64,000 bases of DNA from Dyella sp. OK004. GTDB lineage: Bacteria > Pseudomonadota > Gammaproteobacteria > Xanthomonadales > Rhodanobacteraceae. The notes under the pieces were generated by a model. The model saw only the letters and a program-made list of their open reading frames with translations. It searched no databases and had not been told where the DNA came from. The stretch lies in NCBI RefSeq assembly GCF_900114495.1, contig NZ_FOZI01000001.1, positions 639,469-703,468 of the forward strand, in the 5' to 3' direction. Shown in pieces: positions 13,264-33,233 of the stretch (position 1 is the stretch's first letter; each line of letters starts with the position of its first letter). The position numbers and the translations under genes are program-made.

Positions 13264-14397
13264 CTACACAGCCAGTCTTGGCGCCAACATCGCCGCCGAC
13301 AACCCCGCATCCGCCAGATGCGCCGGCAGCGCCCGCCCCAGCGCCAGACTGGCGCAAGCCTCGCCCATCGCCGCGCTGGTCTGGATGCCGTAGCCGCCCT
13401 GCGCGGCAACCCAGAAGAACCCCTCCGCATCTTTGGTGAAGCCACCGACCAGATCGCCATCGGCGACGAAGGAGCGCAGGCCGGCCCAGGTGCGGGTCGG
13501 CCGGCGGATGCTCAGGGTGGTAGCTTCTTCGATGCGGTAGATACCGAGGGCGATATCCAGTTCTTCCGGCTGCACATCGTGCGGCAGCACGGGGTCGGCG
13601 TTGGCGGCCGAGCCGAGCAACAGGCCGGCGTCGGGCTTGAAGTAGAAGCTCTCGTCGACGTCGATCACGAACGGCCAGTGCGCGGTGGGCAATGCTGGTG
13701 GCGGTTCGAACAGGAAGGCGGAGCGCCGCCGCGGTTCGATACCCAGCGGCGCCACGCCGGCCTGCATCGCGACCTGATCCACCCAGGCGCCGGCCGCATT
13801 GAGCAACAGCGGCGTGCGATAGACCTGCTCGCCAGTGTCCACGTACCAGTGTCCCGGCCCGCGCTCGATGGCAGCAATCTCGACATTCACGCGCAGCTGC
13901 CCACCACGCGCGCGCAGCCCGCGCAGAAACCCCTGATGCAATTCATTGACGTCGATATCCGCCGCACCGGGTTCGAGCAGGCCGATATGCGCCGCCTCCG
14001 GCCGCAACACCGGCACCTGCTCGCGCAGTTCGCGACCGGTTTGCAGAACGAGGTCCGGCGTGAACGGCAGCATCGCCGCATGCATCGCCATCACCTGCTC
14101 CACCTGTGCCTCGGTGCCGATGATCGTGGCGCCACGCGGCGTAAGGATAGGTTGTGACGCAAAGCCAGCCGGCGGACGGTTGAGGAACGGACGCGTTGCG
14201 CGCGTCAGCGCGCGTACCTGCGGCGAACCGTAGGTCTCGGAAAACAGCGCAGCCGATCGCCCAGTGGCATGCACGCCGGCATGCGCCTCGCGTTCCAGCA
14301 CCAGTACCTGCGCATGCGGCGCCATGAAATAAGCCGCCGAAGCGCCGGCCATGCCAGCGCCGATCACGATGGCTTCGATATCCATCACCCGGCTCAT
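13264..14397 (-). CDS. FAD-dependent oxidoreductase, glycine/D-amino-acid oxidase (DadA-like) family
   Basis: A 377-residue DAO-family flavoprotein. The N-terminal Rossmann site is 'IEAIVIGAGMAGASAAYFMA' followed by 'VLVLEREAHAGVHATGRSAA', and the C-terminus has 'GFFWVAAQGGYGIQTSAAMG', the usual FAD-binding end of these oxidases. The family oxidises secondary or D-amino acids to imino/keto acids. In context, D-Ala or D-Glu released from murein peptides are the likely substrates, but this is inference. No signal peptide is seen, so it acts in the cytoplasm or at the inner membrane. The ATG overlaps the symporter stop by four bases; it is the last gene of the minus-strand operon. Confidence 0.82.
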   Translation of the reverse strand: MSRVMDIEAIVIGAGMAGASAAYFMAPHAQVLVLEREAHAGVHATGRSAALFSETYGSPQVRALTRATRPFLNRPPAGFASQPILTPRGATIIGTEAQVEQVMAMHAAMLPFTPDLVLQTGRELREQVPVLRPEAAHIGLLEPGAADIDVNELHQGFLRGLRARGGQLRVNVEIAAIERGPGHWYVDTGEQVYRTPLLLNAAGAWVDQVAMQAGVAPLGIEPRRRSAFLFEPPPALPTAHWPFVIDVDESFYFKPDAGLLLGSAANADPVLPHDVQPEELDIALGIYRIEEATTLSIRRPTRTWAGLRSFVADGDLVGGFTKDAEGFFWVAAQGGYGIQTSAAMGEACASLALGRALPAHLADAGLSAAMLAPRLAV

Positions 14398-15629
14398 GAC
14401 GCATCCGCCGCGGATTGCTTCGCCACCACGCTGGTCGCGGTGAGATCCGCGGTGACATTGCCCAGTGTCGCCAGCGCATCCGGCAGCGTGTCCACCGCCA
14501 GCATCAGACCCAGCGGCCCCACCGGCACACCCATCGCCTGCGCCACCGGCAGGTTGGTGGCCATGAAACTCACCTGCCCCGGCAAACCTACCGAACCCAG
14601 GCTGATCACCACCGCGAGCAACGCACCGGCCACTAGCTGCGCTACGCCCAGGTCCATCCCAAATGCCCACGCGATAAAGCAGGCGGAAGTGACGTACTGC
14701 ACCGGGCTGGTAAGGCGAAACAGGCTCACCGCCATCGGCAGCACCAGCGCCGTGACGTGCGCGGGATAGCCCAGCCGACTACCCGCGCTTTCCAGCATCG
14801 CCGGCATCGACGCCAGCGACGATTGCGTACTGGCCGCCACGATCTGCGCCGGCACCAGCGCCGCGATAAAACGACGTACGCGCTCGCCGCCCCACACCAG
14901 CGCCACCGGCAGCATCATCGCCGTCACCGCGAGATAGAGCAGGCATTCCACCAGCACGTAGATACCCAGCGCGCCGAGCATATGCAGCCCGGCCCGTGCG
15001 CACACCGCGAGGATCAGCGCAAACACACCCAGCGGCGCTACCCACAACACCCAGCGCACCACCACGATCATCGCGTCGGCGACCGCCTGGAAGAATTCCA
15101 CAATCAGCGCCCGCCGCTTCAACTCGATCCGCGTCAACGCAAAGCCAAAGAACAGCGCGAACACCACCAGCGGCAGCATGGCGCTCTGCGCCGCCGCCAT
15201 GATCGCGTTGCTGGGCACGATGCCGTTGAACCATTCGGCCCAGCCTATCGGCGCCACCGCCACCGGCGTGGCCACCGCACGGCCAAGGGCTTCGGTCAAC
15301 GCCGGACTGCGCGGAAACAACGCGAACAGCAAAGGGGCGGCGAGCGCCGCGAACAACGCTCCCGCCACCAGCAACACCACGAATACCACAATGGCGCGGC
15401 GGGCCACCCGGCCCGATGCCGCCGCATCGGTGGCCGTGTTGACGCCCACGATCACCAGCGCAAAAACCAGCGGCACTACCGTCATCTGCAGGGCGTTCAA
15501 CCATAGCCGTCCAAACGGTTGCGCCACATCCGCCACGCGCAAGGCCGTTACCGGATGCCATGCATCCAGCGTCAGCCCAAGCGCCGCACCAGCCGCCAGG
15601 CCGATCAGGACCCGCGTGGTGGCGCTCAC
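14394..15629 (-). CDS. Dicarboxylate/amino acid:cation symporter (DAACS family)
   Basis: A 411-residue inner-membrane transporter related to GltP/DctA. It has about eight to ten hydrophobic segments, the 'TVVPLVFALVIVGV' region after the second helix, a serine-rich hairpin-like 'ASTQSSLASMPAMLESAG' and the C-terminal 'VSLGSVGLPGQVSFMATNLP' and 'DTLPDALATLGNVTADLTAT' segments that line the substrate and cation sites. Typical substrates are glutamate, aspartate, alanine, serine or C4-dicarboxylates. A GTG start at 15629 overlaps the upstream TGA by four bases. In this operon, uptake of Glu or Ala released from peptides is the natural guess. Confidence 0.85.
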   Translation of the reverse strand: MSATTRVLIGLAAGAALGLTLDAWHPVTALRVADVAQPFGRLWLNALQMTVVPLVFALVIVGVNTATDAAASGRVARRAIVVFVVLLVAGALFAALAAPLLFALFPRSPALTEALGRAVATPVAVAPIGWAEWFNGIVPSNAIMAAAQSAMLPLVVFALFFGFALTRIELKRRALIVEFFQAVADAMIVVVRWVLWVAPLGVFALILAVCARAGLHMLGALGIYVLVECLLYLAVTAMMLPVALVWGGERVRRFIAALVPAQIVAASTQSSLASMPAMLESAGSRLGYPAHVTALVLPMAVSLFRLTSPVQYVTSACFIAWAFGMDLGVAQLVAGALLAVVISLGSVGLPGQVSFMATNLPVAQAMGVPVGPLGLMLAVDTLPDALATLGNVTADLTATSVVAKQSAADAS

Positions 15630-16405
15630 GGCAGCGCCCAGTCTTTGCGCAGGCGCACGTATTCCTTTTGCGGCAGCAGGATGAAGATCGGGTTTTCCTC
15701 CGGCTTCAGCCAGGTCAGCAGCATCTGCATTTCCACTTCGTCCATCGCCGTGCAGCCCGCCGTGGTCTCCATCGGCATCTGCCACAGGTGCGCGAAAATG
15801 CAGGAACCCGCGCCGCGCTTGCCGTTGGGGTTCTGCTCGATCACGAAGCCGAGCTCGTAGCGCATGTCGCCGTCGGCATGCAGGTCGCGCCGCATCGGCT
15901 CGGTGGAATCGACCACCGCCTGCTGGCCTACCTCTCGCGCATCGACGATGCGGTTGTAGAGCGGCGAACCGTCGACATCGACGCAATAGTCCGACTCCTG
16001 CAGCGCGCGATAGGGCAACGCGGTGGTCGAGCGTGCGGCGTAACCAAAGGCCTGACCGATGCTGAACACGCCGGCCGCGCTACGCCCATCGCCCTCCTTC
16101 TTTACCGGCCCGCCGGTCTGTGTTGGCTGCAGGCCCTCGCCCCAGGCAGCACCGGAGCGGCCGATGCTTACCGGCACACCCTCGCTCACTTCCTCCCAGG
16201 CGCCATCACCGCGCTCATAGGTGCGCAGGTCGCCATGATCCGTATCCCAGTCGTCGATGGTCACCAGCACGAGCTGGTGCGCGTCCTGCCAGGGCGTGGT
16301 GTTCACGGGTGCCTCTGGCACTTGCCGCACACAGCCGGCGAAGGTGGCCGCCAGTACCAGGCAAGAAACTGAGCGCAGCGCGGAGCGAAGAGATGCGTTG
16401 ACCAT
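15626..16405 (-). CDS. L,D-transpeptidase (YkuD)-like lipoprotein
   Basis: A 259-residue secreted protein. Residues 1-22 form a lipoprotein signal with lipobox LAATFAGC, so it should be anchored in the periplasm. The C-terminal half resembles the YkuD/ErfK L,D-transpeptidase fold, with a candidate His206 in 'CIFAHLWQMPMETTAGCTAM' and Cys218. The spacing and the 'TAGCTAM' core differ from the canonical SHGC motif, so it belongs to the divergent branch often annotated simply as L,D-transpeptidase family. It could crosslink, attach or exchange residues on peptide stems. It lies between the regulator and the symporter in one operon. Confidence 0.75.
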   Translation of the reverse strand: MVNASLRSALRSVSCLVLAATFAGCVRQVPEAPVNTTPWQDAHQLVLVTIDDWDTDHGDLRTYERGDGAWEEVSEGVPVSIGRSGAAWGEGLQPTQTGGPVKKEGDGRSAAGVFSIGQAFGYAARSTTALPYRALQESDYCVDVDGSPLYNRIVDAREVGQQAVVDSTEPMRRDLHADGDMRYELGFVIEQNPNGKRGAGSCIFAHLWQMPMETTAGCTAMDEVEMQMLLTWLKPEENPIFILLPQKEYVRLRKDWALP

Positions 16406-16431
16406 GCGGACCTGTCGACAGAGGAAAACAC

Positions 16432-17277
16432 CTAGGGTTCGAGCAACAACTGCATGCGTTCCAGATTGGCGATCAACTGCGCGTGGCGCTGTTCGTCGCC
16501 CTCGCACAACTGGATAAAGATGCCATCGAGCAACTGCTGCAGGGCGGACTGATACAGCAGCGACTGGATATACGGTCGATCATCGTGCGCTGACACCAGC
16601 AACGCGATGTTAGCCAGCGCACGCAGAGGATTCGAGGTATGCCGCGTTACCGTGAGCAGACGGCCGCCCTGTTCGCGAAAGAAGCGCCCCACCTTGCACA
16701 GCGCCGGATGGTTGCCGTGCTCGGAGAACACCAGCAGCACATCCCCTGCGCCGGCTCCGGAAATACTCACCGTCATACGCGTGATGTCGAAGCTCTGCAC
16801 GGTAGTCATGCCCAGCATCGAGAGCTTCAGGGCAAAGCCGCGCGCATAGATGTCGTCTTCACCCACACCGATCACGAAGACCTTGCCGGCGTCAGCGAGC
16901 GCACCCAGCACCGCCTGCAACGTTTCCGGCGGATTGATCAGCCGGGTTGCCTCCTCCGCTTCCGACTTGCGCCGCCACAGGCTGCTCGCCTGTGCGGCGG
17001 CGTCATCGGCAACGTGACGCGACACCACCGCCGCATCGCCGTTATCCGCGCGGGCAATCGCTTCGCCCACCGAGTACTTCAGATCCGGGTAGCCCTTGAA
17101 GCCGAGCTTCTGAGTGAACTTGACCACGCTGGACTGGCTGATGCCCAGCGCGTTGGCCAGCTGCTGCGAGGAGTAGTCGCGCAGCAACTGCGCATTCTCC
17201 AGGATGAAATCGGCGATGCGCCGCTCCACCGCCGACATCTGGTCGCGTTCGGAACGGATTTTCACCAGAGCAGACAT
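16432..17277 (-). CDS. RpiR/MurR-family transcriptional regulator
   Basis: A 281-residue regulator with an N-terminal RpiR helix-turn-helix (residues about 1-78; 'YSSQQLANALGISQSSVVKF' then 'TQKLGFKGYPDLKYSVGEAI') and a C-terminal SIS sugar-isomerase domain (about 115-250; 'VFVIGVGEDDIYARGFALKL' and 'GDVLLVFSEHGNHPALCKVG'). RpiR proteins sense phosphosugars through the SIS domain; MurR responds to MurNAc-6-phosphate. That fits a murein-peptide operon, but the effector here is unknown. The ATG follows the epimerase TAG by two bases. A 15-base inverted repeat between the two divergent operons (21047-21061) is a candidate operator. Confidence 0.88.
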   Translation of the reverse strand: MSALVKIRSERDQMSAVERRIADFILENAQLLRDYSSQQLANALGISQSSVVKFTQKLGFKGYPDLKYSVGEAIARADNGDAAVVSRHVADDAAAQASSLWRRKSEAEEATRLINPPETLQAVLGALADAGKVFVIGVGEDDIYARGFALKLSMLGMTTVQSFDITRMTVSISGAGAGDVLLVFSEHGNHPALCKVGRFFREQGGRLLTVTRHTSNPLRALANIALLVSAHDDRPYIQSLLYQSALQQLLDGIFIQLCEGDEQRHAQLIANLERMQLLLEP

Positions 17278-17279
17278 AA

Positions 17280-18371
17280 CTAGATCTTTTCCAAGCCACG
17301 AATCTCGCGGATGCCCAGTCCCGGCGCATCGCTCACCGAGATCTCCGATTCGTTGAAGTTCACCCCGCCATCTACCGGGTTGTACTGGCACAGCGAGGGG
17401 CCATCCAGATCCACCTTGGTGATCACGTCGGCCTTGGCTACCGCCAGGTGCACCGCCGCCGCCACGCTGATGCTGCTTTCCAGCATGCAGCCGATCATGC
17501 ATTCGATACCGTGCATGCCGGCGATGTCGGCGATGCGCACCGCATTGGAAATGCCACCGGTCTTCATCAGCTTGATATTGATGATGTCGGCCGCGCGCAG
17601 GCGGATCAGTTCGATCACCTCCATCGGTCCGAACACGCTCTCATCGGCCATCACCGGCGTATGCACGCGCTCAGTGACGTAGCGCATGCCTTCAAGGTCG
17701 CGCGCCTTCACCGGCTGCTCAACCAGTTCCAGCTTCACGCCGGCATCTTCCAGCGTCTGCAAGGCATACACCGCCTGCTTGGCGGTCCAGCCCTGATTGG
17801 CGTCCAGGCGCAGCAGCGCACGGTCTTCCACCGCCGCATAGATCGCTTTGACCCGCTCGATGTCGACGCCGATGTCCTTGCCCACCTTGATCTTCAGCGA
17901 CTCGAAACCGCGATCCACCGCGCTGATCGAATCGGCCACCATCTTGTCGATGTAGTCCACGCTGATGGTGATGTCGGTGGTGATCACCGGGTCGCCGCCG
18001 CCCAGCAGTTTGTACAGCGGTGCCTGGTAGAGCTGGCCCCACAGGTCATAAACAGCGATCTCCACCGCCGCCTTGGCGCTAGAGTTCTTCTCCATCGAGC
18101 CCTGGATCAGCTGGGTGATGCGATTGAGATTGGCGATGTCCTGGCCGATCACGCGCGGCGAGATGTAGTGGCGGATGGCGTCGACGATGGAACCGTGCGT
18201 ATCGCCGGTGATCACCGCCGTGGCCGGCGCCTCGCCATAGCCGATGTGACCGCAGTCGGTATGCACCATGACGATGATGTCTTCGACCCGGTCAACCGTG
18301 CGCAGCGCGGTCTTGAAGGGTGTCTTCAGCGGCACCCGCAGCATGCCGAACTGGATATCGGTAATTTTCAT
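17280..18371 (-). CDS. Dipeptide epimerase, L-Ala-D/L-Glu type
   Basis: A 363-residue enolase-superfamily enzyme of the muconate-lactonizing subgroup. The catalytic lysines are in 'FESLKIKVGKD' (KxK) and 'IINIKLMKTGG'; metal ligands are in 'LRLDANQGW', 'VEQPVKA' and 'MADESVFG'. The C-terminal 'ITKVDLDGPSL' carries the Asp-x-Asp pair that, in L-Ala-D/L-Glu epimerases such as YcjG and YkfB, holds the dipeptide amino group. These enzymes convert L-Ala-D-Glu from murein to L-Ala-L-Glu so that ordinary peptidases can cut it. Neighbouring NlpC/P60 and transporter genes match the ykf-type recycling context. Confidence 0.9.
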   Translation of the reverse strand: MKITDIQFGMLRVPLKTPFKTALRTVDRVEDIIVMVHTDCGHIGYGEAPATAVITGDTHGSIVDAIRHYISPRVIGQDIANLNRITQLIQGSMEKNSSAKAAVEIAVYDLWGQLYQAPLYKLLGGGDPVITTDITISVDYIDKMVADSISAVDRGFESLKIKVGKDIGVDIERVKAIYAAVEDRALLRLDANQGWTAKQAVYALQTLEDAGVKLELVEQPVKARDLEGMRYVTERVHTPVMADESVFGPMEVIELIRLRAADIINIKLMKTGGISNAVRIADIAGMHGIECMIGCMLESSISVAAAVHLAVAKADVITKVDLDGPSLCQYNPVDGGVNFNESEISVSDAPGLGIREIRGLEKI

Positions 18372-18396
18372 GAGGTCCGTCTGGCTGATTGTCTGG

Positions 18397-19824
18397 TCAG
18401 TTTTTTTGCGGTTCTGCATGCGCCTGACGGATGCGCACAATGCTGGTCATGCGATCGATATACGACTGCGTGCCGTTGAACATCAGCGGCCGCAGCGGCG
18501 TCACCGATACCGCATTGAGTTTGACCCGCCGCATGGCGCCACCGCTCTCGCGATAGCTGATACCGGTGGTGTCGTGAATCACATAGGGTTCGCCGTCGAT
18601 GCGGCCGATCATCATCATCACGTGACCGGGGATGTAGATCAGGTCGCCCACCTCCAGCGCATCGATGGCGCGCTCGCGCTTTGCATGATCGTCGGCCGCC
18701 GTTAACAACGTGTGGTCGAGCGCGGGACTCACGCCCTGTCCACTGGTATTGCGCGGCATCTGCACACCCATGCTGCGATACACGTCGGAGGTGAAACCGC
18801 TGCAATCGCGCGCGTCGTAGGCATGGCCCCAGCCGTAACGCTCGCCCAGGAACTTGAAGGCCTGGCGAATGATGTTGGCACGCGTCAGCGGCAGATAGTC
18901 CGGCGCGGTGTCGGTGTTGTGCTGGAGCAGCGCCGGCGTGAATGCCAACGTGCCGTCCTCCGCGCGCAACGGCAGTTCGACCGGATACGAGGTGTAGCCG
19001 GACTGGCCATTGACCGGCTGGTCCGGTGCCAGCCCCGTCGCCAGCGGCAGGCGCACGCCCATGTCCAGTTGCAGCTGTGAAACCCCGGACTGCTCGCGGG
19101 TGAACACGGTGCGCTCGGTGGCGCCGGTGATCACGCGGTAAGGCGCCTTGTCGACATAGCCGAGCACCTGCGCCGCCGTACCCTCGGCCACATCCTCGCG
19201 CGCCATCCATGCGGCGTAGCGCGGACTCACCACAAATAGCCACTGGCCGTCCTGGCTGGTATGCGCAATCACTATCGGCGTGCCGGGGAATTCCGCACTT
19301 TCCTGAAAGCGGTCAATATCGGTATCACCCTTGCTGCTAAACACGCGCAGCGCCGTGGGAAAGGCACGCAGATCGGCGCGACGCACCACCATGCCGTAGC
19401 GCGTGGCCTGCTGCTTGGGGACGCGATCCAGGGCAAGGTCCGCGCTCAGTGCATCGAGCGTGGCCGCCGGCACTGGCTTGCCATCCACATCAAACAGCGA
19501 CCCCTTGGGGCGCCTGGAAATCCCGTTGATCCATGCCAACACCTGCGCCTGGTCCAGCGTGGCCGGCAGCGCATGCAGGTCGTGCATGGTGGGATCAATT
19601 TTCAGCAGCTTCGCGTTCTGTGCCGCAATGGCATCGGCGCTCAACACGATGGCATCCGGCTGGGACGCCTTGCGTACCCAGAACTCCGGATCAAGCTGCT
19701 GCTGTGTCACACCGATCACTCCCGAGGGCGGCACCGGCAGCGTAGCGTTTGCTTCGCGTGCATGCAGCGCGCCGGCTTCCAGCAACAGGACAAAGGCGAT
19801 CGCGGCGGCAAGTGGATAGCGCAT
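18397..19824 (-). CDS. Secreted SH3/NlpC-P60 peptidase (YkfC-like)
   Basis: A 475-residue protein with a signal peptide (residues 1-22, MRYPLAAAIAFVLLLEAGAL). The middle (about 140-320) fits bacterial SH3 domains. The C-terminal NlpC/P60 domain has Cys341 in 'DARDCSGFTSDVYRSMG', His401 in 'IPGHVMMMIGRI' and His417 in 'PYVIHDTTG'. This architecture is that of YkfC/dipeptidyl-peptidase VI, which cleaves the gamma-D-Glu-diaminopimelate (or Lys) bond of tripeptides that have a free L-Ala, releasing L-Ala-D-Glu. The next gene encodes the epimerase that takes this product, strongly supporting the assignment. Confidence 0.88.
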   Translation of the reverse strand: MRYPLAAAIAFVLLLEAGALHAREANATLPVPPSGVIGVTQQQLDPEFWVRKASQPDAIVLSADAIAAQNAKLLKIDPTMHDLHALPATLDQAQVLAWINGISRRPKGSLFDVDGKPVPAATLDALSADLALDRVPKQQATRYGMVVRRADLRAFPTALRVFSSKGDTDIDRFQESAEFPGTPIVIAHTSQDGQWLFVVSPRYAAWMAREDVAEGTAAQVLGYVDKAPYRVITGATERTVFTREQSGVSQLQLDMGVRLPLATGLAPDQPVNGQSGYTSYPVELPLRAEDGTLAFTPALLQHNTDTAPDYLPLTRANIIRQAFKFLGERYGWGHAYDARDCSGFTSDVYRSMGVQMPRNTSGQGVSPALDHTLLTAADDHAKRERAIDALEVGDLIYIPGHVMMMIGRIDGEPYVIHDTTGISYRESGGAMRRVKLNAVSVTPLRPLMFNGTQSYIDRMTSIVRIRQAHAEPQKN

Positions 19825-19850
19825 GGTTCGGTTTCCAGACAAGAGCAGGC

Positions 19851-21002
19851 TCAAGGCAACGCCAGCCGCGACAGCACCGACGCCACCACCAGACCGAAGC
19901 CGGTGCCGAGGATATAGCCCAGCAGCGCCAGCAAAATGCCCACTGGCACCAGCGAGCGCGAATACGTCGCGGCCAGCACCGGCGTCGCCGCCACGCCGCC
20001 GATATGCGCCAGCGAGGAGATGCCGCACAGATACAGGTCGAAGCGGAACAGCCGCGCGAACATCACCAGCAGCACCGCATGGATAGCGATGATGCAGACG
20101 CCGCACATCAGGTACACCGGCGCCGAGGCGATGCCCTCGAAATTGCTTTGCGAAGCAAGCACCGCCACCACGCTGATCAACAGCGTGCTGGAAATCTTGC
20201 TCGCCCCCGGGAAACGCGCCAGCGGCGTGTGCGCTGCGATGAGGCCCGCCGCCGTGGCAAGCAGGATTGACCAAGTGGACGCGCTCACCATGCTCGACGT
20301 CGGCAGTAGTTCACCCAGCCAGCTGGAACCCGCCGCGATCAGCAAGGCCATGCCTAGCCATAGCAGCACGGTGTCCGGCGTAGTCGGACCGGTGTTTGGC
20401 GTTTCGGCGACATCCAGATCGCCACTCGACTTTGCGCGCGTCCATCGATTGAAGGCCGGTGCCATTTTCGCCACCGAGAACAGCACCACCACCCACATCG
20501 AGTAGCACAGCGCATCGGTAAGCAGGCTCATCGCCAAGTGTGTGTCCGACATGCCGATCGCCTGCTTCACCGCGATCATGTTGGCGGTGCCGCCTACCCA
20601 GCTGCCGCTGAGCGCGGCCAGCGGATGCCAGGCATCGCCGGGCAACCAGCGCCGGAACATTAGATAGGTAGTGATAAAGGCCACGAACAGGCTGATCGAG
20701 GTGCAGGCGAATACGCCGAGCACGCGCGGCCCGAGCCGGAAGATCGCGCGCAGATCGCAATTGATCATCAGCAGAAACAACAGCGCCGGCACCAATCGCG
20801 TCACCAGGGTGGACTGCGCGCCCTGGATCTCGGCGTTGTTCTGCCACAGCCCGGTGACAGCCAGGGCGGTGACCAGCAGGTAGGTCAGCACGATCGGCGG
20901 CAGCACATTGAAGATGCGCCAGCCGAAGCGCCGCTCGATCGCGGGAAACAGCCCAGCGGCCAACAACATCACTGCCAGGTAAGGCCAGACCGTGTGGATC
21001 AT
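19851..21002 (-). CDS. DUF819 (YjcL-like) membrane transporter
   Basis: A 383-residue integral membrane protein with about ten to eleven transmembrane helices and no soluble domain. The conserved 'LAALSGSWVGGTANMIAVKQ' and 'HIGGVAATPVLAATY' segments form the paired-repeat signature of DUF819, a family of unproved function that resembles gluconate/glutamate-type carriers. A GAGGGGG stretch four bases before the ATG at 21002 is a strong ribosome site. As first gene of an operon with a murein tripeptide peptidase and dipeptide epimerase, it is a good candidate permease for a murein peptide or a product of its breakdown. The substrate is inferred only from context. Confidence 0.83.
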   Translation of the reverse strand: MIHTVWPYLAVMLLAAGLFPAIERRFGWRIFNVLPPIVLTYLLVTALAVTGLWQNNAEIQGAQSTLVTRLVPALLFLLMINCDLRAIFRLGPRVLGVFACTSISLFVAFITTYLMFRRWLPGDAWHPLAALSGSWVGGTANMIAVKQAIGMSDTHLAMSLLTDALCYSMWVVVLFSVAKMAPAFNRWTRAKSSGDLDVAETPNTGPTTPDTVLLWLGMALLIAAGSSWLGELLPTSSMVSASTWSILLATAAGLIAAHTPLARFPGASKISSTLLISVVAVLASQSNFEGIASAPVYLMCGVCIIAIHAVLLVMFARLFRFDLYLCGISSLAHIGGVAATPVLAATYSRSLVPVGILLALLGYILGTGFGLVVASVLSRLALP

Positions 21003-21046: not shown

Positions 21047-21117
21047 GGAATAGCTAATTCCTGCAAAGCTCAATTGAAGCATAAATTATTGACCGCGGAT
21101 TGCAAGCGTGCTACACA
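21047..21117. promoter_or_regulatory. Divergent promoter region with candidate operator
   Basis: This is the shared control region of the two murein-peptide operons. Facing right, TTGACC (21089-21094) and TACACA (21112-21117) are spaced by 17 bases, a strong sigma-70 promoter for the transglutaminase-TonB receptor operon. An inverted repeat GGAAT-AGCTA-ATTCC (21047-21061) lies on the side facing the DUF819 gene and overlaps its likely promoter (TTGAGC...TATTCC on the minus strand, 15-base spacing). It is a candidate site for the RpiR-type regulator encoded at 16432-17277. Confidence 0.45.
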
Positions 21118-25725: not shown

Positions 25726-25756
25726 GGCGGCCCGCGTGTTGCGGGCCGCCTTCTTT
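25726..25756 (+). terminator. Hairpin terminator after the TonB receptor
   Basis: GGCGGCCCGC-GTGTT-GCGGGCCGCC (25726-25750) followed by TTCTTTT. It lies between the receptor and the decarboxylase in an otherwise tight operon, so it probably lowers rather than stops downstream transcription. Confidence 0.7.
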
Positions 25757-25762
25757 TAGGCC

Positions 25763-27049
25763 ATGCCCCAGACCCTTCCCTCTTCGCATCCCGACGCGCC
25801 AGACGCCAATGCCTTCCTTGACGGCGTGGATCTGCGTCGTCTCGCCGAGCGCCTGCCCACACCCTTTCACGCTTACTCCGCGAATGCGATCCGTCAGCGC
25901 ATCGCCGGTCTGCAACAGGCTCTGCACAGTCTCGACGCCACCCTCTGCTACGCGGTGAAGGCCAACTCCACCCTGGCCATCCTGCAACTGATGGCCGAGG
26001 CCGGTGTCGGCGCCGACATCGTGTCTTCCGGGGAGCTATGGCGCAGCCTGCACGCCGGCATTCCCGCGGAGCGCATCGTGTTTTCCGGCGTCGGCAAGAC
26101 CGAGCAGGAAATCGCCGAAGCGCTCGCCGCCGGCATCCTGCGCTTCAACGTCGAATCGATCGACGAACTGCACATGCTGCAACGTCTCGCCAGCGCCCTG
26201 CACATTAACGCTCGCGCCGCAGTGCGCATCAATCCGGACGTGGATGCACAAACCCACGCGAAAATCTCCACAGGCAAGGCCGAAAACAAATTCGGCGTGA
26301 GCATCGCCGAAGCACGGCGCTGGTTCGCCGATGCAGGCCAACTCACCCATGTGCGACTGGATGGGCTGCATGTGCATATCGGCTCGCAGATTCTCAGCGT
26401 CGAGCCGTTCCGTCTGGCGCTTTGGCGCGTCGCTGCGTTCTGGCGCGAGCTGGAAGCCAATGGCCACGCCATCGCCAGCATCGATGTCGGCGGTGGCCTG
26501 GGCGTGTGCTATCGCGCCGGGCAGGATCATCCGGTGGCGCCGGCCGACTACACCGCAGCGATCCGCGACGCGCTGGCCGACTTCCGCGGTCGCATCCTGC
26601 TCGAACCTGGCCGCTACCTGGTGGCCGAGGCGGGTGTGTTGTTGACGCGGGTGATCCGCATCAAACACGGCGAGCGACAAAACTTCCTGGTACTCGACGC
26701 CGCCATGAACGACCTGCTGCGCCCCAGCCTCTACGACGCCTGGCACGACATCGTCCCGTTGGTCGATGGCCAGCGAAAGCGTACGCATTACGACGTGGTC
26801 GGCCCGGTCTGCGAAACCGGCGATACCTTCGCGCGCGATCGCGAACTGCTCGAGTTGCGACCCGGCGATCTGGTGATGATCCGCGGCACCGGCGCCTATG
26901 GCGCCTCCATGGCTTCAACCTACAACTCGCGCCCGCTCGCGGCCGAGGTGCTGCTGGACCAGGGCCGGCATGCCATAGTGCGGCGCAGGCAGCGTTTCGA
27001 AGACATGGTCGCCGGCGAGCAGCCGGCCCGGGACTGGGACATCGCATGA
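25763..27049 (+). CDS. lysA: Diaminopimelate decarboxylase (fold-type III PLP enzyme)
   Basis: A 428-residue decarboxylase. PLP lysine is Lys66 in 'LCYAVKANSTLAIL'; other family motifs are 'GADIVSSGELWRSL', 'LDGLHVHIGSQI', 'SIDVGGGLGV', 'ILLEPGRYLVAEAGVLLTRV' and 'GPVCETGDTFARDR' with the Cys from the partner subunit. These match DAP decarboxylases, which convert meso-DAP to lysine. In this operon it could use meso-DAP freed from murein peptides instead of, or as well as, biosynthetic DAP. Other group IV decarboxylases are less likely given the motif match. It overlaps the dipeptidase start by four bases. Confidence 0.85.
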   Translation: MPQTLPSSHPDAPDANAFLDGVDLRRLAERLPTPFHAYSANAIRQRIAGLQQALHSLDATLCYAVKANSTLAILQLMAEAGVGADIVSSGELWRSLHAGIPAERIVFSGVGKTEQEIAEALAAGILRFNVESIDELHMLQRLASALHINARAAVRINPDVDAQTHAKISTGKAENKFGVSIAEARRWFADAGQLTHVRLDGLHVHIGSQILSVEPFRLALWRVAAFWRELEANGHAIASIDVGGGLGVCYRAGQDHPVAPADYTAAIRDALADFRGRILLEPGRYLVAEAGVLLTRVIRIKHGERQNFLVLDAAMNDLLRPSLYDAWHDIVPLVDGQRKRTHYDVVGPVCETGDTFARDRELLELRPGDLVMIRGTGAYGASMASTYNSRPLAAEVLLDQGRHAIVRRRQRFEDMVAGEQPARDWDIA

Positions 27050-28269
27050 AGATCTGGCGCACGAAGGCTTCGCGTATCGGCATCGCATTCGCACCGCTTC
27101 TCGCCTGCTGGAGCATCGGCGTCCAGGCACAGCAAGATCCACCGATCACCATCGATACCCATGTGGATATCCCCCTGGCGTATATGCGCGAGGCGCGCTT
27201 CGATGCAGGCAAGGACACGCCACTGCGCGTCGACTTGGGCAAGATGGAGCGCGGCGGCCTCAATGCCGTGTTCTTCGTGATCTATGTGGAACAAGGCCCG
27301 TTGACGGCCGAGGGCTATGCCAAAGCCGTGGCGCAGGCCAGGCAGAAATACGACGATATCGATCTGCTGGTGAAGCGCTACCCACAGCGTATCCGGCTCG
27401 CCACCACGCCCGAACAGGTGCTGGTCAACCGCAAGGCCGGCAAGCTGTCGGCGATGATCGGTATCGAGAACGGCTACTCGCTGGGCCACGATCTGAAGAA
27501 CCTCGACGTGGCCTTCGCGCGCGGCGCCCGCTATATCGGCCTGACCCACGTCGGCCATAACGATCTGTGCACCAGCTCCATGCCCACCGCCGACCTGGGC
27601 GATCCACCGCTCAGCGATGCGGGCCTCAGCCCGTTTGGCCGCAGCGTGGTCGAGCGCGCCAACCAGCTGGGCATGATGATCGATATCTCGCATAGCTCCG
27701 ATGCTTGTGTGCGCGATGTGCTGCAGGTATCGAAGGCGCCGATCATCGCCTCGCACTCCGCCGCGCATGCGCTGATCAATCACCCGCGCAACCTGCCCGA
27801 CGATCTGTTGCGCGCCATCGCGGCCAAAGGCGGCGTGGTGCAGGCCGTGGCGTACAAAGGCTTCCTGAAACTCGACCCCGGTCGCGAGCTGGCTGAGAAG
27901 GCATTGCAGGCGCAGGTAGCAAAACAGGCCGGCGACAAGAGCTACGACAGCGAGAAGCACGATTTCCTGCCCGCTTATGTGGAAGGCATGCGCCGCATCG
28001 ATGCAGCCTTCCCGCTGCCCACGCTGAACGACTACGTGGCGCATATCCGCCATATGGTCGATGTCGCTGGCATCGATCACGTCGGCATTGCCTCCGACTT
28101 CGACGGCGGCGGCGGTATCGATGGCTGGCAGGACGCCACCGAAACCCGCAACGTCACCGCAGCACTGCGCCGCCATGGTTTTAGCGACAACGACATCGCC
28201 AAGCTGTGGGGCGGCAACCTGCTGCGCGTATGGCGTGCGGTGGAACAGGATGCCGATGCGCATCGCTAA
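27046..28269 (+). CDS. Secreted membrane dipeptidase (renal dipeptidase family, M19)
   Basis: A 407-residue zinc dipeptidase with a signal peptide (to about residue 28). Metal and catalytic motifs of family M19 are present: 'TIDTHVDIPLAY' (HxD), 'MIGIENGYSLG' (bridging Glu), 'YIGLTHVGHNDLC', 'IDISHSSDACV' and 'IIASHSAAHAL' (two metal His), and 'HVGIASDFDGGGG' near the C-terminus. M19 enzymes cleave dipeptides with either L or D C-terminal residues and some act on beta-lactams. It is an obvious candidate for splitting L-Ala-D/L-Glu or other L,D dipeptides in the periplasm. ATG overlaps the decarboxylase stop. Confidence 0.93.
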   Translation: MKIWRTKASRIGIAFAPLLACWSIGVQAQQDPPITIDTHVDIPLAYMREARFDAGKDTPLRVDLGKMERGGLNAVFFVIYVEQGPLTAEGYAKAVAQARQKYDDIDLLVKRYPQRIRLATTPEQVLVNRKAGKLSAMIGIENGYSLGHDLKNLDVAFARGARYIGLTHVGHNDLCTSSMPTADLGDPPLSDAGLSPFGRSVVERANQLGMMIDISHSSDACVRDVLQVSKAPIIASHSAAHALINHPRNLPDDLLRAIAAKGGVVQAVAYKGFLKLDPGRELAEKALQAQVAKQAGDKSYDSEKHDFLPAYVEGMRRIDAAFPLPTLNDYVAHIRHMVDVAGIDHVGIASDFDGGGGIDGWQDATETRNVTAALRRHGFSDNDIAKLWGGNLLRVWRAVEQDADAHR

Positions 28270-29797
28270 GCGGTGGCTGGCCGTCGCGCTGGCCCTGGCG
28301 ACGGGATTGGCTCACGCGCAGACGCCGAAGGAAACCTTCGACCCGCTGATTGATGCGGTGATGGCACGTTATCGCCTGCCCGGTCTTGCGGTGGGGGTAA
28401 TCGACCATGGCGAAGTGATCTACAAGCGCACCGCTGGCGAACTCGCGCGCGGCTCCGGCCAGCCGGTGACGCCGGATGCGTTGTTCAAAATCGCCTCCAA
28501 CAGCAAGGCCATGACCGCGACTCTGCTCGCGCGGCTGGTCCAGCAGGGCAAGCTGCGCTGGGACGATCCGGTAACGCGCTACCTGCCTGCCTTCCGCATG
28601 TTCGATCCGTGGGTGACGCAGCACATGCAGGTCGGCGACCTGCTGACGCATCGCAGCGGCCTGCGCGAAGGTGCCGGCGATCTGATGCTATGGCCGGAAC
28701 CGAACCACTTCACCCGCACCGACATCGTCTCTGCGCTGGCCTGGCTGAAGCCGGCCTACAGCTTTCGCGCCGGTTACGCCTACGACAACTTGCTCTACGT
28801 CGTCGCGGGTGAAGTCGCCGCTGTGGCGGGTGGCGCTCCGTACGAAACACTGTTGAAGCGCGAGGTCTTCGAGCCGCTGGGACTCTCGCGCTGCCAGGTA
28901 GGTGAATGGCGGCGCGATGCGATGGCGCCGGTCGCGCTCCCGCATGCGAAGCGCGACGACGCGTATATGCCTTCCTTACCAGACGATCCGGTCGTGCATG
29001 CCAGCACCATGGAAGCCGCGGGCGGTGTGCAGTGCAGTCTCAACGACATGCTGATCTGGGCCCACCAATGGCTGGCGCCGACGCCACAGCAACTGGCCTG
29101 GCTGCCGCAGGCACAGCGCGACAAGCTGTGGACGCCGTACACCCCGATGCCGATCTCCGCGCAACGTCGCGCCTGGGACGGCACGCGCCTGTACGCCTAT
29201 GGCTACGGCTGGCGCATTGCCGATGTCGACGGCGCACTCACGGTGTCGCACACGGGCACGCTGTCGGGCATGTATTCCGCGCTGTATCTGCTGCCGGATC
29301 GCCAGAGCGGTTTCGTGGTGCTGATCAACGGCGACGCCGATGACGCGCGCACCGTGCTGATCGAAGTGCTGCTCAAGCACTTCACCGCGCAGGACAAGGC
29401 GCGCAGCGTGGCCAGCTATGCCGATGAGCTCGCTGCCAAGGAACACTCCCGGCGCACCTCGCATGTGCCGGACACGTCCACCCGGCGCCCCGCTTCAGCC
29501 ACCGAGTTACGCAGCCAGCTGGGCGTGTGGCGCGACCCGTGGTTCGGCGATATCACACTCTGCCCGCGCGACGGCGGCGTGATTTTTGCGGCCGCCAAGT
29601 CGCCTCGATTGCGCGGCCCCGTGATGCGCGTGGGTCAGCGCTATCTGGTGCAGTGGGAACACGGCGATGAAGAGGCTTGGCTAGCGCCGCCCACCGGCAA
29701 GACCGGCCTGCTGCATTTAAGCAAGATCGATCCCGATGCGGACTTCAGCTACGACTATGAAGACCTCGCCTTCAAGCATGTGCGCGGCTGTGAATAG
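28256..29797 (+). CDS. Serine hydrolase, penicillin-binding/class C beta-lactamase-like, with C-terminal extra domain
   Basis: A 513-residue secreted protein (signal peptide to about residue 21). The catalytic triad motifs of S12-type serine hydrolases are there: Ser81-x-x-Lys84 ('IASNSKAMTATLLARL'), Tyr-x-Asn in 'YAYDNLLYVVAGEV' and His-Thr-Gly in 'VSHTGTLSGMYSAL'. About 100 residues after this form an additional C-terminal domain of the type found in many bacterial serine hydrolases. Possible activities are D-aminopeptidase, D,D-carboxypeptidase or esterase. Start at 28256 follows AGGA by five bases and lies inside the end of the dipeptidase gene, so the two are coupled. Confidence 0.85.
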   Translation: MRIAKRWLAVALALATGLAHAQTPKETFDPLIDAVMARYRLPGLAVGVIDHGEVIYKRTAGELARGSGQPVTPDALFKIASNSKAMTATLLARLVQQGKLRWDDPVTRYLPAFRMFDPWVTQHMQVGDLLTHRSGLREGAGDLMLWPEPNHFTRTDIVSALAWLKPAYSFRAGYAYDNLLYVVAGEVAAVAGGAPYETLLKREVFEPLGLSRCQVGEWRRDAMAPVALPHAKRDDAYMPSLPDDPVVHASTMEAAGGVQCSLNDMLIWAHQWLAPTPQQLAWLPQAQRDKLWTPYTPMPISAQRRAWDGTRLYAYGYGWRIADVDGALTVSHTGTLSGMYSALYLLPDRQSGFVVLINGDADDARTVLIEVLLKHFTAQDKARSVASYADELAAKEHSRRTSHVPDTSTRRPASATELRSQLGVWRDPWFGDITLCPRDGGVIFAAAKSPRLRGPVMRVGQRYLVQWEHGDEEAWLAPPTGKTGLLHLSKIDPDADFSYDYEDLAFKHVRGCE

Positions 29798-30515
29798 GCA
29801 TACGCGCTTCCGCTGGCTCACTGTGGTGGCAATGACCGTCCTTACCAGCGGCTGTGCTACGCAAGCTGACAAGCCACCACTCGCCACAGGCACGCTGGCG
29901 GCAGCGGGACTGGTGGATGTCCGCAGCCTGGTGCCGGATATCAGCGAAAACATCAAATACGCCGGCAGCGACAATTTCGTCGGCGCGCCGGTGGACGGCT
30001 ACGAGTCACCGAAATGCTATCTGCTGCGTCCGGCGGCGGAAGCACTGCAACGAGTCGAGCTGGCCTTGCGCGCGAACCATCAACGCCTGCTGCTGTGGGA
30101 TTGCTATCGCCCCGCGCGCGCTGTGCGGCATTTCGTGCGCTGGGGCGGCGATCTCGCCGACCAGCGCACCAAGGCCGCGCACTATCCGCACCTGGACAAG
30201 CGCATGCTGCTCGGCGACTACATCGCGCCGCGTTCCGGCCATAGCCGCGGCGCCACGCTGGACTTGACGCTGATGCAATGCGATGCCGGCGGCGATCATT
30301 GCGAACCGCTCGATATGGGCACGCCGTTCGACTACTTCGACCCGCTTGCCAACACCGACTCGCCCGTCGTCACCGCCGCGCAGCGCGCGAATCGCGACCG
30401 CCTGCGCGATGCCATGACGCGCGGCGGCTTCCGCAACTATCCGTTCGAGTGGTGGCATTACACGCTCAACCCCGAGCCATCGCCTGACACCTACTACGAC
30501 TTGCCCGTGCGCTGA
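29778..30515 (+). CDS. D-Ala-D-Ala dipeptidase (VanX/DdpX, M15D) lipoprotein
   Basis: A 245-residue zinc dipeptidase. The motifs of VanX are exact: 'SGHSRGATLDLTL' with His155 and Asp162, and 'EWWHYTLN' with Glu224 and His227. The N-terminus is a lipoprotein signal with lipobox LTSGC, so it should act from the periplasmic face. VanX/DdpX hydrolyses D-Ala-D-Ala; outside vancomycin resistance these enzymes let bacteria use D-Ala-D-Ala from murein as a nutrient. No vanH, vanA or vanRS is nearby, so resistance is unlikely. The start may instead be GTG at 29790. It overlaps the preceding serine hydrolase gene. Confidence 0.93.
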   Translation: MCAAVNRHTRFRWLTVVAMTVLTSGCATQADKPPLATGTLAAAGLVDVRSLVPDISENIKYAGSDNFVGAPVDGYESPKCYLLRPAAEALQRVELALRANHQRLLLWDCYRPARAVRHFVRWGGDLADQRTKAAHYPHLDKRMLLGDYIAPRSGHSRGATLDLTLMQCDAGGDHCEPLDMGTPFDYFDPLANTDSPVVTAAQRANRDRLRDAMTRGGFRNYPFEWWHYTLNPEPSPDTYYDLPVR

Positions 30516-30534
30516 GCACGGCTTCGAGGACACC

Positions 30535-31578
30535 ATGCGTTCCATCATCCGCCTGCTCGCCTCGCTACTCCTCCTCGGCTCCACCGGTGTCCGCGCCGAC
30601 AACGCCGACACACTGATGCAGCGCTACACCGGAAAAGTGCCAGGTGCCTCGCTGCTGGTGCTCAAGGACGGCAAGCCGGTGCTGCGCAAGGCCTACGGCT
30701 ACGCCAATCTCGAAAGCGACGAGGCAGCGACGCCGGCCACCAATTACCGGCTGGCCTCGGTCAGCAAGCAATTCACCGCGGCAGCGATCCTTCTGCTGGC
30801 GGAAGACGGCAAGCTGAAGCTCGATGATTCGGTGCGCCGCTGGTTGCCATCACTGCCCGCCACCGACCAGGCGATCACCCTTCATCACCTGCTCTCGCAC
30901 AGCTCCGGCCTGATCGATTACGAAGATCTGATTCCGCCCGGCACGACCGCTCAACTCAACGACAACGATGTGCTGCGCATGCTCTCCGCCGAAAACCGCA
31001 GCTACTTTGCGCCCGGCACGAGCTATCGCTATAGCAACAGCGGCTACGTGCTGCTCGGGCTGATCGTGGAGCGCGCCTCCGGCCAGCGCCTGCCGGAGTT
31101 CCTGCGTCAGCGCATCTTCGAACCGCTGCATATGGACCACACCCTGCTGCGCGAACCCAGTGGCCCCGAGCCCGCGCACCGCGCCTTCGGCTACAGCGAA
31201 ACGGACGGCAAGTGGACCCGCACCGACCAGGACCTGACCAGCGCCACGCGCGGCGACGGCGGCGTCTACGCTTCCATTGACGATCTCGCGAGCTGGGACG
31301 CGGCGCTATACGACCATCGCCTGCTCAGCGACGCCTCACGCAAACTCGCTTTCGCCGCACAGAACAAGGTCAACGGCGAGGACGACGTCGATGCCTACGG
31401 CTACGGCTGGCGAATCCACGGCGACGTGCGCTGGCACTCCGGCGAAAGCATCGGCTTTCGCAACGTGATCGTGCGCTGGCCGAAACACCACGTGACGGTG
31501 ATCCTGCTCAGCAATCGCAACGATCCCGAGCCGTATCGCACCGCGCTTGCTGTCGCGCAACCATTTCTTGGCCACTGA
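30535..31578 (+). CDS. Serine hydrolase, beta-lactamase family (second copy)
   Basis: A 347-residue secreted serine hydrolase (signal peptide about residues 1-21). Motifs: Ser75-x-x-Lys78 in 'LASVSKQFTAAAIL', Tyr-x-Asn in 'YRYSNSGYVLLGLIV', and His-Ser-Gly in 'RWHSGESIGFRN'. It is shorter than the copy at 28256 and has no extra C-terminal domain, so it is not a recent duplicate. GAGGA four bases before the ATG is a good ribosome site. The family includes D,D-peptidases, D-aminopeptidases and esterases; its place next to VanX suggests a D-Ala-containing peptide, but no residue proves it. Confidence 0.85.
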   Translation: MRSIIRLLASLLLLGSTGVRADNADTLMQRYTGKVPGASLLVLKDGKPVLRKAYGYANLESDEAATPATNYRLASVSKQFTAAAILLLAEDGKLKLDDSVRRWLPSLPATDQAITLHHLLSHSSGLIDYEDLIPPGTTAQLNDNDVLRMLSAENRSYFAPGTSYRYSNSGYVLLGLIVERASGQRLPEFLRQRIFEPLHMDHTLLREPSGPEPAHRAFGYSETDGKWTRTDQDLTSATRGDGGVYASIDDLASWDAALYDHRLLSDASRKLAFAAQNKVNGEDDVDAYGYGWRIHGDVRWHSGESIGFRNVIVRWPKHHVTVILLSNRNDPEPYRTALAVAQPFLGH

Positions 31579-32644: not shown

Positions 32645-32820
32645 TCGAAACCATGACGAAATGCATCATCCAGCGATGGAAAAGCCACCTCGCGCGGACG
32701 TACCATGGCTCACGAGGGGCGACGCCCTCGACGAATGCTTCGCCACGGTGGGTCCGGCGAACCCAGACGAGCAGCATGTCTATCCACAGCACCGACTTCG
32801 ACGGCTTGGAGAGAACATCA

Positions 32821-33233
32821 TGCGCTACACGTTATTCGAGAAACACAGAGACGAGGTCATCCTTGTCGCCCGCATTCTCTTGATGATCCTGTTCGTGAAG
32901 TTCGGCTGGTCCAAGGTCATCGGCTTCTCGGGCACCGTGACCTATATGGCCTCGGCCGGCCTGCCGGCGCCGACGCTATCGACGATCATCGCCATCGTGA
33001 TGGAATTCGCGGTGGGCATCGCGCTGGCACTCGGCTACTTCACGCGGCCGCTAGCGCTGATCCTCGCGGTGTATACCTTCGCCACGGCACTCATCGGCCA
33101 TCCGTACTGGAACATGTCGGGAGACATGCAGTACATGGCGATGATCAACTTCTACAAGAACATCAGCATCGTGGGCGGACTCTTGCTGCTGTGCGCAATC
33201 GGCCCGGGAAAGTATTCCCTCGACAAACGCTGA
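32821..33233 (+). CDS. DoxX family membrane protein
   Basis: A 137-residue inner-membrane protein with four transmembrane helices and DoxX-family features ('RILLMILFVKFGWSKVIGFS', 'MASAGLPAPTLSTIIAIVME', 'LGYFTRPLALILAVYTFATA'). DoxX proteins are linked to redox homeostasis or quinone-related processes in some bacteria, but the function is usually unknown. GGAGAG six bases before the ATG supports the start. The 176 bases between this gene and the alpha/beta hydrolase hold no credible reading frame, so it may or may not belong to the same operon. Confidence 0.83.

Follow-up and report, generated by a model that had tools for sequence, protein, structure and literature searches.

What does a bacterium do with a gene cluster that joins a dipeptide epimerase to peptidoglycan-type hydrolases, membrane carriers and an outer-membrane receptor? 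The question is raised by a locus of Dyella sp. OK004 (genome of 4.96 Mb) that lies in a stretch of 64,000 nucleotides with 63% G+C (contig NZ_FOZI01000001.1, positions 639,469 to 703,468), hereafter the window. It comprises 14 genes in two divergent operons (window positions 13264–31578), and several adjoining genes overlap by 4 to 20 bases. The gene families and motifs, a largely conserved order, co-occurrence across genomes, a second lysA gene and an intergenic element with a single site per genome identify it most probably as a locus for the utilization of peptidoglycan stem peptides. The cluster is real, conserved and functionally coherent; its enzymes are of known kinds, and what appears new is their assembly with a receptor. 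The full gene set is one version of a modular system.

A reading of the sequence alone had proposed two divergent operons for the uptake and degradation of murein peptides. Assignment of gene families with Pfam and NCBIfam profiles recovered both operons and all of the families named, about where they had been placed, and added two genes that had been missed, for an L,D-transpeptidase-like (LDT-like) lipoprotein (15626–16405) and a transglutaminase-core protein (21183–22658). The minus-strand operon runs from 21002 to 13264 and encodes a DUF819 carrier, an NlpC/P60 protein with an SH3b1 domain, the epimerase, an RpiR regulator with a SIS domain, the LDT-like lipoprotein, an SDF symporter and a DauA-like dehydrogenase. 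The plus-strand operon (21183 to 31578) encodes the transglutaminase-like protein, an Oar-type TonB-dependent receptor, a diaminopimelate (DAP) decarboxylase, an M19 dipeptidase, the S12 hydrolase S12a, a VanX-like dipeptidase and a second S12 hydrolase, S12b.

The conservation of the cluster was followed in two sets of loci. Set A comprised 63 loci found with DUF819 by a search of genome contigs, and often had the right end of the cluster out of view. Set B was built around the epimerase, which a search at E 1e-60 placed in 64 of the 200 order genomes and in 11 of the 398 genomes from the phylum; among the 63 order genomes besides the host, 61 regions were read, leaving out G416 and G118 (match at the contig end) and keeping contig-end regions, a split epimerase (L145) and a weak match (L146; 36% identity). 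The L145 epimerase (G907:C7:105558–106639) matched as two adjacent pieces in different frames, pointing to a frame break or an assembly error. As controls we drew 40 random regions of 20 kb, which came from 29 set B genomes.

At least three of the 14 families occurred in 57 of the 61 epimerase loci, and at least two in none of the 40 controls (counts by gene are in Table 1). The members of each set are related, so Fisher values overstate their independence. For M19 we used the tblastn figures; profile searches of open reading frames gave lower ones (38/63 in set A and 13/61 in set B). The NlpC profile was found in 4 of 369 genomes of the class, and all four also carry the epimerase. The genes co-occur, mostly in order, in records of Rhodanobacteraceae, Dokdonella, Lysobacter and Steroidobacter, and the nearest named loci for most of them are Dyella records (L021 and L037). 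Gene order is largely kept, with exceptions in short (L023, L038 and L043), rearranged (L045) and reduced (L046 and L047) loci. Conserved co-occurrence was the check proposed with the sequence-only reading, and the core homologues are not scattered: they stand together across relatives when set against the control regions.

The epimerase, a member of the enolase superfamily, aligns over residues 1–354, almost its full length, with the B. subtilis L-Ala-D/L-Glu epimerase AEE, with the KxK, DANQ, VEQP, ADES, NIK and DxDxP motifs in register. Among 61 orthologues, KxK, RLDANQ and ADES are kept in 61, NIK/NLK and DxD(G/A)P in 59 each and VEQP in 41. The protein scores below the curated NCBIfam cut-offs for AEE (NF041118, 255.8 versus 500 bits; NF011708, 110.7 versus 343 bits), and its identity is taken from the motifs and the nearest structure rather than from a curated model, with the exact dipeptide predicted. 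Its NlpC/P60 partner has the SH3b1 and NlpC/P60 domains and the Cys-His-polar triad of the YkfC type (C341 and H401 invariant and H417 nearly so in 17 orthologues). PDB matches are the D. vulgaris enzyme DvLysin (3m1u, 106 bits), 6sqx (46 bits) and B. cereus YkfC (3h41, 22 bits). An invariant RNT (358–360, in the 17 orthologues) replaces the RDS motif of YkfC, a residue of which holds the free L-Ala amine (PMC2954226; papers are cited here by PMC number, from excerpts of their text). The protein may share the function of YkfC, but it is nearer to DvLysin and we do not class it as YkfC. DvLysin, PnpA of Photobacterium and EcgA are of the same NlpC/P60 type, with specificity for the bond between gamma-D-Glu and meso-diaminopimelate (mDAP) (PMC7860986). 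A plasmid search with the NlpC/P60 protein returned a single distant match (28.5%).

The DAP decarboxylase of the cluster is not the only one in the genome. The host and all 25 relatives (26/26 genomes) have one lysA match within an open frame that is 855–1013 amino acids long; 24 genomes have a match over the cut-off, and in eight the matched stretch crosses one or two stops. In the host this copy (G000:C8:278762–279835) is the C-terminal part of an intact 870-amino acid open reading frame for a bifunctional aspartate kinase/DAP decarboxylase (1222 bits; cut-off 802), and frame length suggests the same fusion in the other 25 genomes. We rejected the cluster lysA as the biosynthetic or sole copy because of this fused gene elsewhere in the genome. 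A further stand-alone lysA (>450 bits) occurs in 10 of the 26 genomes, the epimerase in 12 and both in eight (one-sided Fisher p 0.009), leaving four with the epimerase alone (G015, G016, G018 and G022). Every one of the 26 genomes has Mpl over its cut-off; where the epimerase is present (12 genomes), the two genes are either on different contigs or more than 2.9 Mb apart. We discarded on this ground the idea that a missing Mpl forces the destruction of the peptides. Since Mpl can religate the tripeptide, recycling needs no destruction, which favours nutrient use over recycling.

Sister loci gave the best independent sign of the substrate, because the enzymes that they add belong to what we take, judging from the families, to be peptidoglycan metabolism. 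Extra families were defined as blastp clusters, named by Pfam from one representative each and recounted by direct blastp of that representative. Among 10 loci from f8, a sister family within the order (several are cut by contig ends), we found Amidase_2 with PG_binding_1 in nine loci, an S66 LD-carboxypeptidase, an alanine racemase and an Oar-like receptor of the L081 type (at least 450 bits) in eight each, SSF in seven, a MurQ-like SIS protein in six and NamZ in five. Around its AEE-NlpC pair, L132 has S66 LD-carboxypeptidases, alanine racemase and Amidase_2 with PG_binding_1, together with an Oar-type receptor and SSF; NamZ, a BadF-type kinase and MurQ (393 bits; cut-off 302) are also present there. 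Fourteen loci of other families have an amino acid permease (at least 470 bits) close to the epimerase. In three genomes from another family of the class (L081, L082 and L083, all with epimerase and NlpC), tblastn gives an LDT-like match in every locus; NamZ with a MurQ-like gene occurs in two and an Oar-like receptor in two. For example, the DUF819-NlpC-AEE-LDT block of L082 runs into SSF, a BadF-type kinase, MurQ (413.5 bits) and NamZ, and the NlpC-AEE-transglutaminase genes of L081 stand with NamZ, VanX-like and Oar-like receptor genes. Both are combined sugar and peptide loci, in which NamZ and MurQ-like genes accompany those of the peptide arm and, in L082, a kinase gene does so as well. 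Together with co-occurrence, these independent architectures support the interpretation as a murein-peptide locus that the sequence-only reading had advanced, the joint pathway being predicted.

A different combination was seen in relative G013 (L197; no epimerase), where the DAP decarboxylase and both S12 genes lie beside the D-glutamate catabolism genes DgcA (435.6 bits; cut-off 400) and DgcN (522.6 bits; cut-off 480) and adjoin a gamma-glutamyltranspeptidase and a Na/glutamate (Glt) symporter. By its NCBIfam name DgcA is an N-acetyl-D-Glu racemase, not a dipeptide epimerase, and no NlpC match was found in the 20 kb read around the block, which looks like a D-glutamate version of the module.

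Table 1. Features of the Dyella sp. OK004 cluster (window positions), with the number of loci carrying each gene in set A (n = 63), set B (n = 61) and the control regions (n = 40)
Feature	Position	Strand	Basis	Set A	Set B	Control
DauA-like FAD D-amino-acid dehydrogenase, probably cytoplasmic	13264..14397	-	PF01266 153 bits; best PDB match DauA 3nyc	35	17	0
SDF (dicarboxylate/amino acid) symporter	14394..15629	-	PF00375 250 bits; GltP model 127 bits, below cut-off 638	49	28	0
L,D-transpeptidase-like (YkuD) lipoprotein	15626..16405	-	YkuD profile; invariant H206/C218; lipobox-like FAGC in window copy	56	46	0
RpiR-type regulator with SIS domain	16432..17277	-	PF01418 79 bits; PF01380 37 bits	56	39	0
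L-Ala-D/L-Glu (dipeptide) epimerase, probably cytoplasmic	17280..18371	-	B. subtilis AEE 1jpm 338 bits	61		
Exported NlpC/P60 endopeptidase with SH3b1, predicted gamma-D-Glu-mDAP	18397..19824	-	PF00877, PF12913	62	57	0
DUF819 membrane carrier (CPA/AT superfamily)	19851..21002	-	PF05684 262 bits		21	0
Near-palindrome GGAATAGCTAATTCC, candidate operator	21047..21061		Conservation in intergenic sequences			
Conserved 18-base element GTCAATAATTTATGCTTC	21076..21093	-	Conservation in intergenic sequences			
Sigma70-like promoter TTGACC-17-TACACA for plus-strand operon	21089..21117	+	TTGACN-16..18-TNNACA in 52/56			
Exported transglutaminase-like (Cys-His-Asp) protein	21183..22658	+	PF01841 60 bits	56	35	0
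Oar-type TonB-dependent receptor	22707..25712	+	PF25183, PF13620, PF07715, PF00593	54	40	2
Second, stand-alone diaminopimelate decarboxylase	25763..27049	+	lysA TIGR01048 470.8 bits (cut-off 297.9)	38	16	1
Exported M19 renal-dipeptidase-type dipeptidase	27046..28269	+	PF01244 321 bits	44	19	0
Exported S12 serine hydrolase a (AmpH-like)	28250..29797	+	PF00144 232 bits; AmpH model 91 bits, below cut-off 266	50	41	1
VanX-like M15 dipeptidase, probable lipoprotein	29790..30515	+	PF01427 138 bits; GTG start 29790, longest open reading frame from 29736	47	46	0
Exported S12 serine hydrolase b, right end of cluster	30535..31578	+	PF00144 249 bits; D-aminopeptidase model 122 bits, below cut-off 443	27	17	2

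The cluster sits between trpE and trpG-trpD-trpC, all on the minus strand (10623–13230 and 35345–36820), and by clustering trpD lies past the DauA end in 15 loci. An exported alpha/beta hydrolase and a DoxX gene follow the cluster (31631–33233) and are not conserved with it. The sequence-only reading had set the right boundary at 33233; we placed both the hydrolase (31631–32644) and DoxX (32820–33233) outside, as each was absent from all loci of sets A and B (0/63 and 0/61), from the controls and from four congeners (0/4). Most of the set A and B stretches end near this position, making those zeros weak alone, and the four congeners show 6.8–7.2 kb beyond S12b.

Most of the motifs counted are invariant or almost invariant among orthologues, the lists of which take in near-window-length copies only, so that n is below the number of loci. 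The flavoprotein, described from the sequence as D-amino-acid-oxidase-like, is of the DAO family and is closest in the PDB to the D-arginine dehydrogenase DauA (435 bits over residues 6–374). The VanX-like protein aligns with VanX (1r44, 150 bits) and its orthologues keep the zinc motifs SxHSRGxxxD (40/43) and E(W/F)WH (43/43); it scores under the curated cut-offs of the VanX/DdpX models (186.5 versus 320 and 102 versus 176 bits). The M19 protein matches 3b40 (219 bits) as well as 2rag and 3id7, with the SHS motif in 32 of 36 orthologues and the longer surrounding M19 pattern in 21. The SxSK motif is present in 42 of 46 S12a and 11 of 15 S12b orthologues. All 26 aligned members of the LDT-like family match the YkuD profile (E up to 1; best E 1.9e-8), H206 and C218 being invariant in the 26 and HLW and GC(T/S)AM present in 55/55; the window copy is weak (E 0.041, 14.9 bits, under the Pfam gathering cut-off of 23.4). 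Its structural model (predicted local distance difference test score, pLDDT, 78.8) placed Ldtfm and Pgp2 at the top of the fold list with E ~0.1 and TM scores of 0.25–0.33; the fold search gave no match at E 0.001 or better, and PDB searches with the protein and the profile gave no meaningful match. The transglutaminase-like protein has C352, H387 and D403 invariant in 25 orthologues and (N/D)IHDW in 42 of 55. Its model (pLDDT 83) best matches the fold of 3isr (E 3.2e-14), and pseudomurein endoisopeptidase is among the weak matches (E 0.017). Pfam and NCBIfam profiles revealed among the 14 genes no amidase for the N-acetylmuramic acid (MurNAc)-L-Ala bond and no dedicated L-Ala-L-Glu peptidase, so that the earlier statement of an enzyme for nearly every bond was somewhat overstated. 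They also revealed no S66 LD-carboxypeptidase (YkfA) and no ATP-binding cassette (ABC) dipeptide importer.

Export was judged by a rough index of hydropathy and motifs, not by a signal-peptide program. In the window the index marks the NlpC, LDT-like, transglutaminase-like, Oar, M19, S12a, VanX-like and S12b proteins and passes over the epimerase, the RpiR protein and the DAP decarboxylase; the DauA-like protein scores due to its FAD-binding start. It also marks most orthologues of NlpC (59/62), M19 (35/36), LDT-like (51/55) and VanX-like (32/43) proteins.

DUF819 proteins are placed in the CPA/AT transporter superfamily (PMC8396727), and 75 of the studied Neisseria meningitidis genomes have a DUF819 gene after an M15 gene (PMC12671195). 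The VanX-like gene adjoins DUF819 also in L023, L038, L043 and L062. This adjacency supports a D-peptide carrier role, and no more. These four loci represent a short Luteibacter form, in which VanX-like lies directly opposite DUF819 and transglutaminase and RpiR matches are absent; an Oar-like match, a distant one, occurs in L023 only, and L062 is a short contig. Linkage of the receptor to the cluster is one of neighbourhood (40 of 61 loci, against two of 40 controls). The Oar counts in Table 1 take any similar receptor of at least 80 bits. Five loci (L005, L039, L061, L104 and L105) have the transglutaminase and DAP decarboxylase genes in place and no receptor between them.

From these families we infer a pathway in which each substrate, the protein locations, the direction of flow, the role of the receptor and growth on murein peptides are predicted. 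The Oar-type receptor would bring peptidoglycan peptides, from the cell's own shedding or from other cells, into the periplasm, where opening of cross-links or trimming of ends would fall to the S12 hydrolases and the LDT-like protein, and perhaps to the transglutaminase-like one. The VanX-like enzyme would split D-Ala-D-Ala, and the NlpC/P60 enzyme would cut gamma-D-Glu from mDAP to yield L-Ala-D-Glu and either mDAP or mDAP-D-Ala. The Chlamydia YkfC turns the tetrapeptide into mDAP-D-Ala (PMC9928106), and for this reason we propose that M19 splits this L,D-dipeptide. DUF819 and the SDF symporter would take the dipeptide and amino acids across to the cytoplasm, where the epimerase would make L-Ala-L-Glu, a substrate for ordinary dipeptidases. 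There, too, L-lysine would be formed from mDAP by the extra DAP decarboxylase, and D-amino acids would be oxidized by the DauA-like enzyme.

Control of both operons probably lies with the RpiR protein, the obvious candidate binder at their shared intergenic region. In 56 intergenic sequences, the near-palindrome pattern GAATNAGNTATTC was exact in 24, within one mismatch in 34 and within two in 55 (shuffles 0.0, 0.1 and 1.1), and the conserved block GTCAATAATTTATKCTTC was exact in 44 and within one mismatch in 55. A search of 13 genomes revealed six sites of the block, one per genome and each within ~3 kb of the epimerase, in six of the seven genomes with the epimerase and none of the six without (reversed-pattern control, 0); no sites beyond the cluster were found in these genomes. 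The plus-strand promoter was read from conservation, and the near-palindrome sits on the other side of the conserved block from it. The regulator had been labelled RpiR/MurR-type: it is an RpiR protein with a SIS domain, and we rejected its identity as MurR because the MurR model gave 89.5 bits against a cut-off of 408 and no MurQ over the cut-off was found in the host genome (one of the 26 genomes, G022, has one). Without that MurQ, MurNAc-6P is a doubtful effector.

Several observations weigh against peptide utilization as the role of the locus. RpiR SIS domains usually bind sugar phosphates, yet the host has no MurQ over the cut-off. With RNT in place of RDS, free peptides are not certain to be the substrate of the NlpC/P60 enzyme. 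The substrates of the receptor, DUF819 and SDF are only predicted. Export scores are weak in the transglutaminase-like (34/55), S12a (25/46) and S12b (7/15) orthologues, and the index also picks up epimerases (13/61) and DauA-like proteins (10/34); we therefore treat protein locations as predictions. Beside the epimerase, DUF819 is absent from 40 of the 61 loci, DAP decarboxylase from 45, the DauA-like gene from 44, M19 from 42 and NlpC from four (L105, L137, L143 and L146). Receptors are missing from otherwise near-complete loci (L039 and L061 in set A; L104 and L105 in set B), and the Oar-like match of L005 is only distant (30%) and at the opposite end. Stand-alone lysA occurs without the epimerase in two of the 26 genomes (G013 and G023), and the congener G001 has no epimerase.

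The locus could instead recycle or remodel the cell's own wall, recovering turnover peptides, with a receptor that imports something else or recaptures shed fragments. All of the hydrolases could act on the own wall, the paired E. coli and Bacillus pathways are described as recycling (PMC2954226, PMC9928106), the receptor is absent from some near-complete loci and an accessory distribution (12 of 26 genomes) is compatible. However, with Mpl elsewhere in all 26 genomes an intact tripeptide is reusable and the locus would destroy it, the TonB receptor and DauA-like dehydrogenase point to catabolism, and the NamZ, MurQ and receptor genes of the sister architectures resemble uptake loci; we consider recycling possible and rather unlikely. 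Improbable to a greater degree is general scavenging of D-amino acids and D-peptides from sources such as peptide antibiotics, aged protein and diverse D-peptides. DauA is a broad enzyme, S12b resembles a D-aminopeptidase and G013 has the S12-DAP decarboxylase block beside D-glutamate genes, all of which would suit such scavenging, but the DAP decarboxylase, NlpC/P60, VanX-like protein and likeness to AEE point to a wall peptide, as do the amidase, LD-carboxypeptidase and NamZ added in sister loci.

The VanX-like protein and the PF00144 matches of the S12 proteins might also suggest resistance genes, in defence against cell-wall antibiotics. We rejected this explanation, which we regard as very improbable: the two S12 proteins reach 82 and 98 bits with the class C beta-lactamase model, whose cut-off is 415, no VanH/VanA partner is among the 14 genes, and the epimerase, DAP decarboxylase and receptor would be left unexplained. 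An assembly of unrelated adjacent peptidases by chance is less probable still and is refuted for the core, even if S12, TonB and lysA families are common and S12, Oar and DAP decarboxylase matches occur in three, two and one of the 40 controls: order is largely kept in the named loci, and the controls lack the combinations of families seen at the epimerase loci. Stem-peptide utilization is the reading that we carry forward.

How does such a locus compare with known systems? Bacillus ykfABC(D) beside dppB-E and B. cereus ykfBC likewise pair an epimerase with an NlpC/P60 gamma-D-Glu-diamino acid endopeptidase (PMC2954226), as noted in the sequence-only reading; the two are encoded together in 57 of our 61 epimerase loci. 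As in the cluster, of the B. cereus pair only the peptidase carries a signal peptide, and ykfBC pairs also occur in Listeria innocua, Acidobacterium, Solibacter, Bacteroides and Gramella (PMC2954226). In comparison with ykf, the cluster adds VanX-like, LDT-like, transglutaminase-like, M19, two S12, DAP decarboxylase, DauA-like, RpiR, DUF819 and outer-membrane receptor genes, has an NlpC nearer to DvLysin than to YkfC and lacks S66 YkfA and the ABC dipeptide importer, S66 occurring in sister loci. The E. coli ddpX-ddpABCDF genes for D-Ala-D-Ala use place a VanX-like dipeptidase in a nutrient-use setting, with other transporters and one substrate only; the cluster protein differs from DdpX in its lipoprotein-like export signal. 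We know of no receptor, VanX or DAP decarboxylase gene alongside E. coli mpaA-ycjG. This pair performs the same chemistry, from tripeptide to L-Ala-D-Glu and DAP followed by epimerization, with a metallocarboxypeptidase (MpaA), unlike the cluster NlpC/P60 (PMC2954226). PnpA, which is secreted and proposed to serve competition or nutrition, and DvLysin are described as single enzymes, and no catabolic locus figures in the excerpted account (PMC7860986).

The named genes of the Tannerella forsythia murTKQ/ampG locus handle the sugar arm and the window cluster the peptide arm, and both arms are joined in L082 and L132. The SSF and BadF-type genes of L082 are presumably like those of the Tannerella set. 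With MurQ and NamZ, they form a group that resembles murTKQ, part of a locus that, likewise in a Gram-negative bacterium, uses external wall material (PMC7670621, PMC10465942). The open-licence PMC literature, in the excerpts available, covers the epimerase-NlpC pair, structures and recycling; within it we found no account of a locus with this gene set and no outer-membrane receptor for wall peptides, which fits the earlier impression that the set is undescribed.

More tentatively, and with clearly less than even chances, the cluster may represent a peptidoglycan utilization locus, a cell-wall counterpart of the polysaccharide utilization locus. The Oar-type receptor would then be an outer-membrane importer dedicated to wall peptides, DUF819 an inner-membrane carrier of L-Ala-D-Glu or related D-peptides and the transglutaminase-like protein a cross-link isopeptidase, with peptide and sugar arms (NamZ, kinase and MurQ) exchanged as modules between families. 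The MurD2/MurL route to D-Glu is listed for Dyella, Frateuria, Rhodanobacter and Lysobacter (PMC8788868), genera in which we also found the cluster, and the handling of free L-Ala-D-Glu is therefore of special interest in them. Wall debris is a pool of soil nitrogen and carbon. Should the receptor act in the proposed way, wall peptides would be food for these bacteria, and a testable function would follow for Oar-like receptors, DUF819 carriers and exported proteins of the transglutaminase-like kind.

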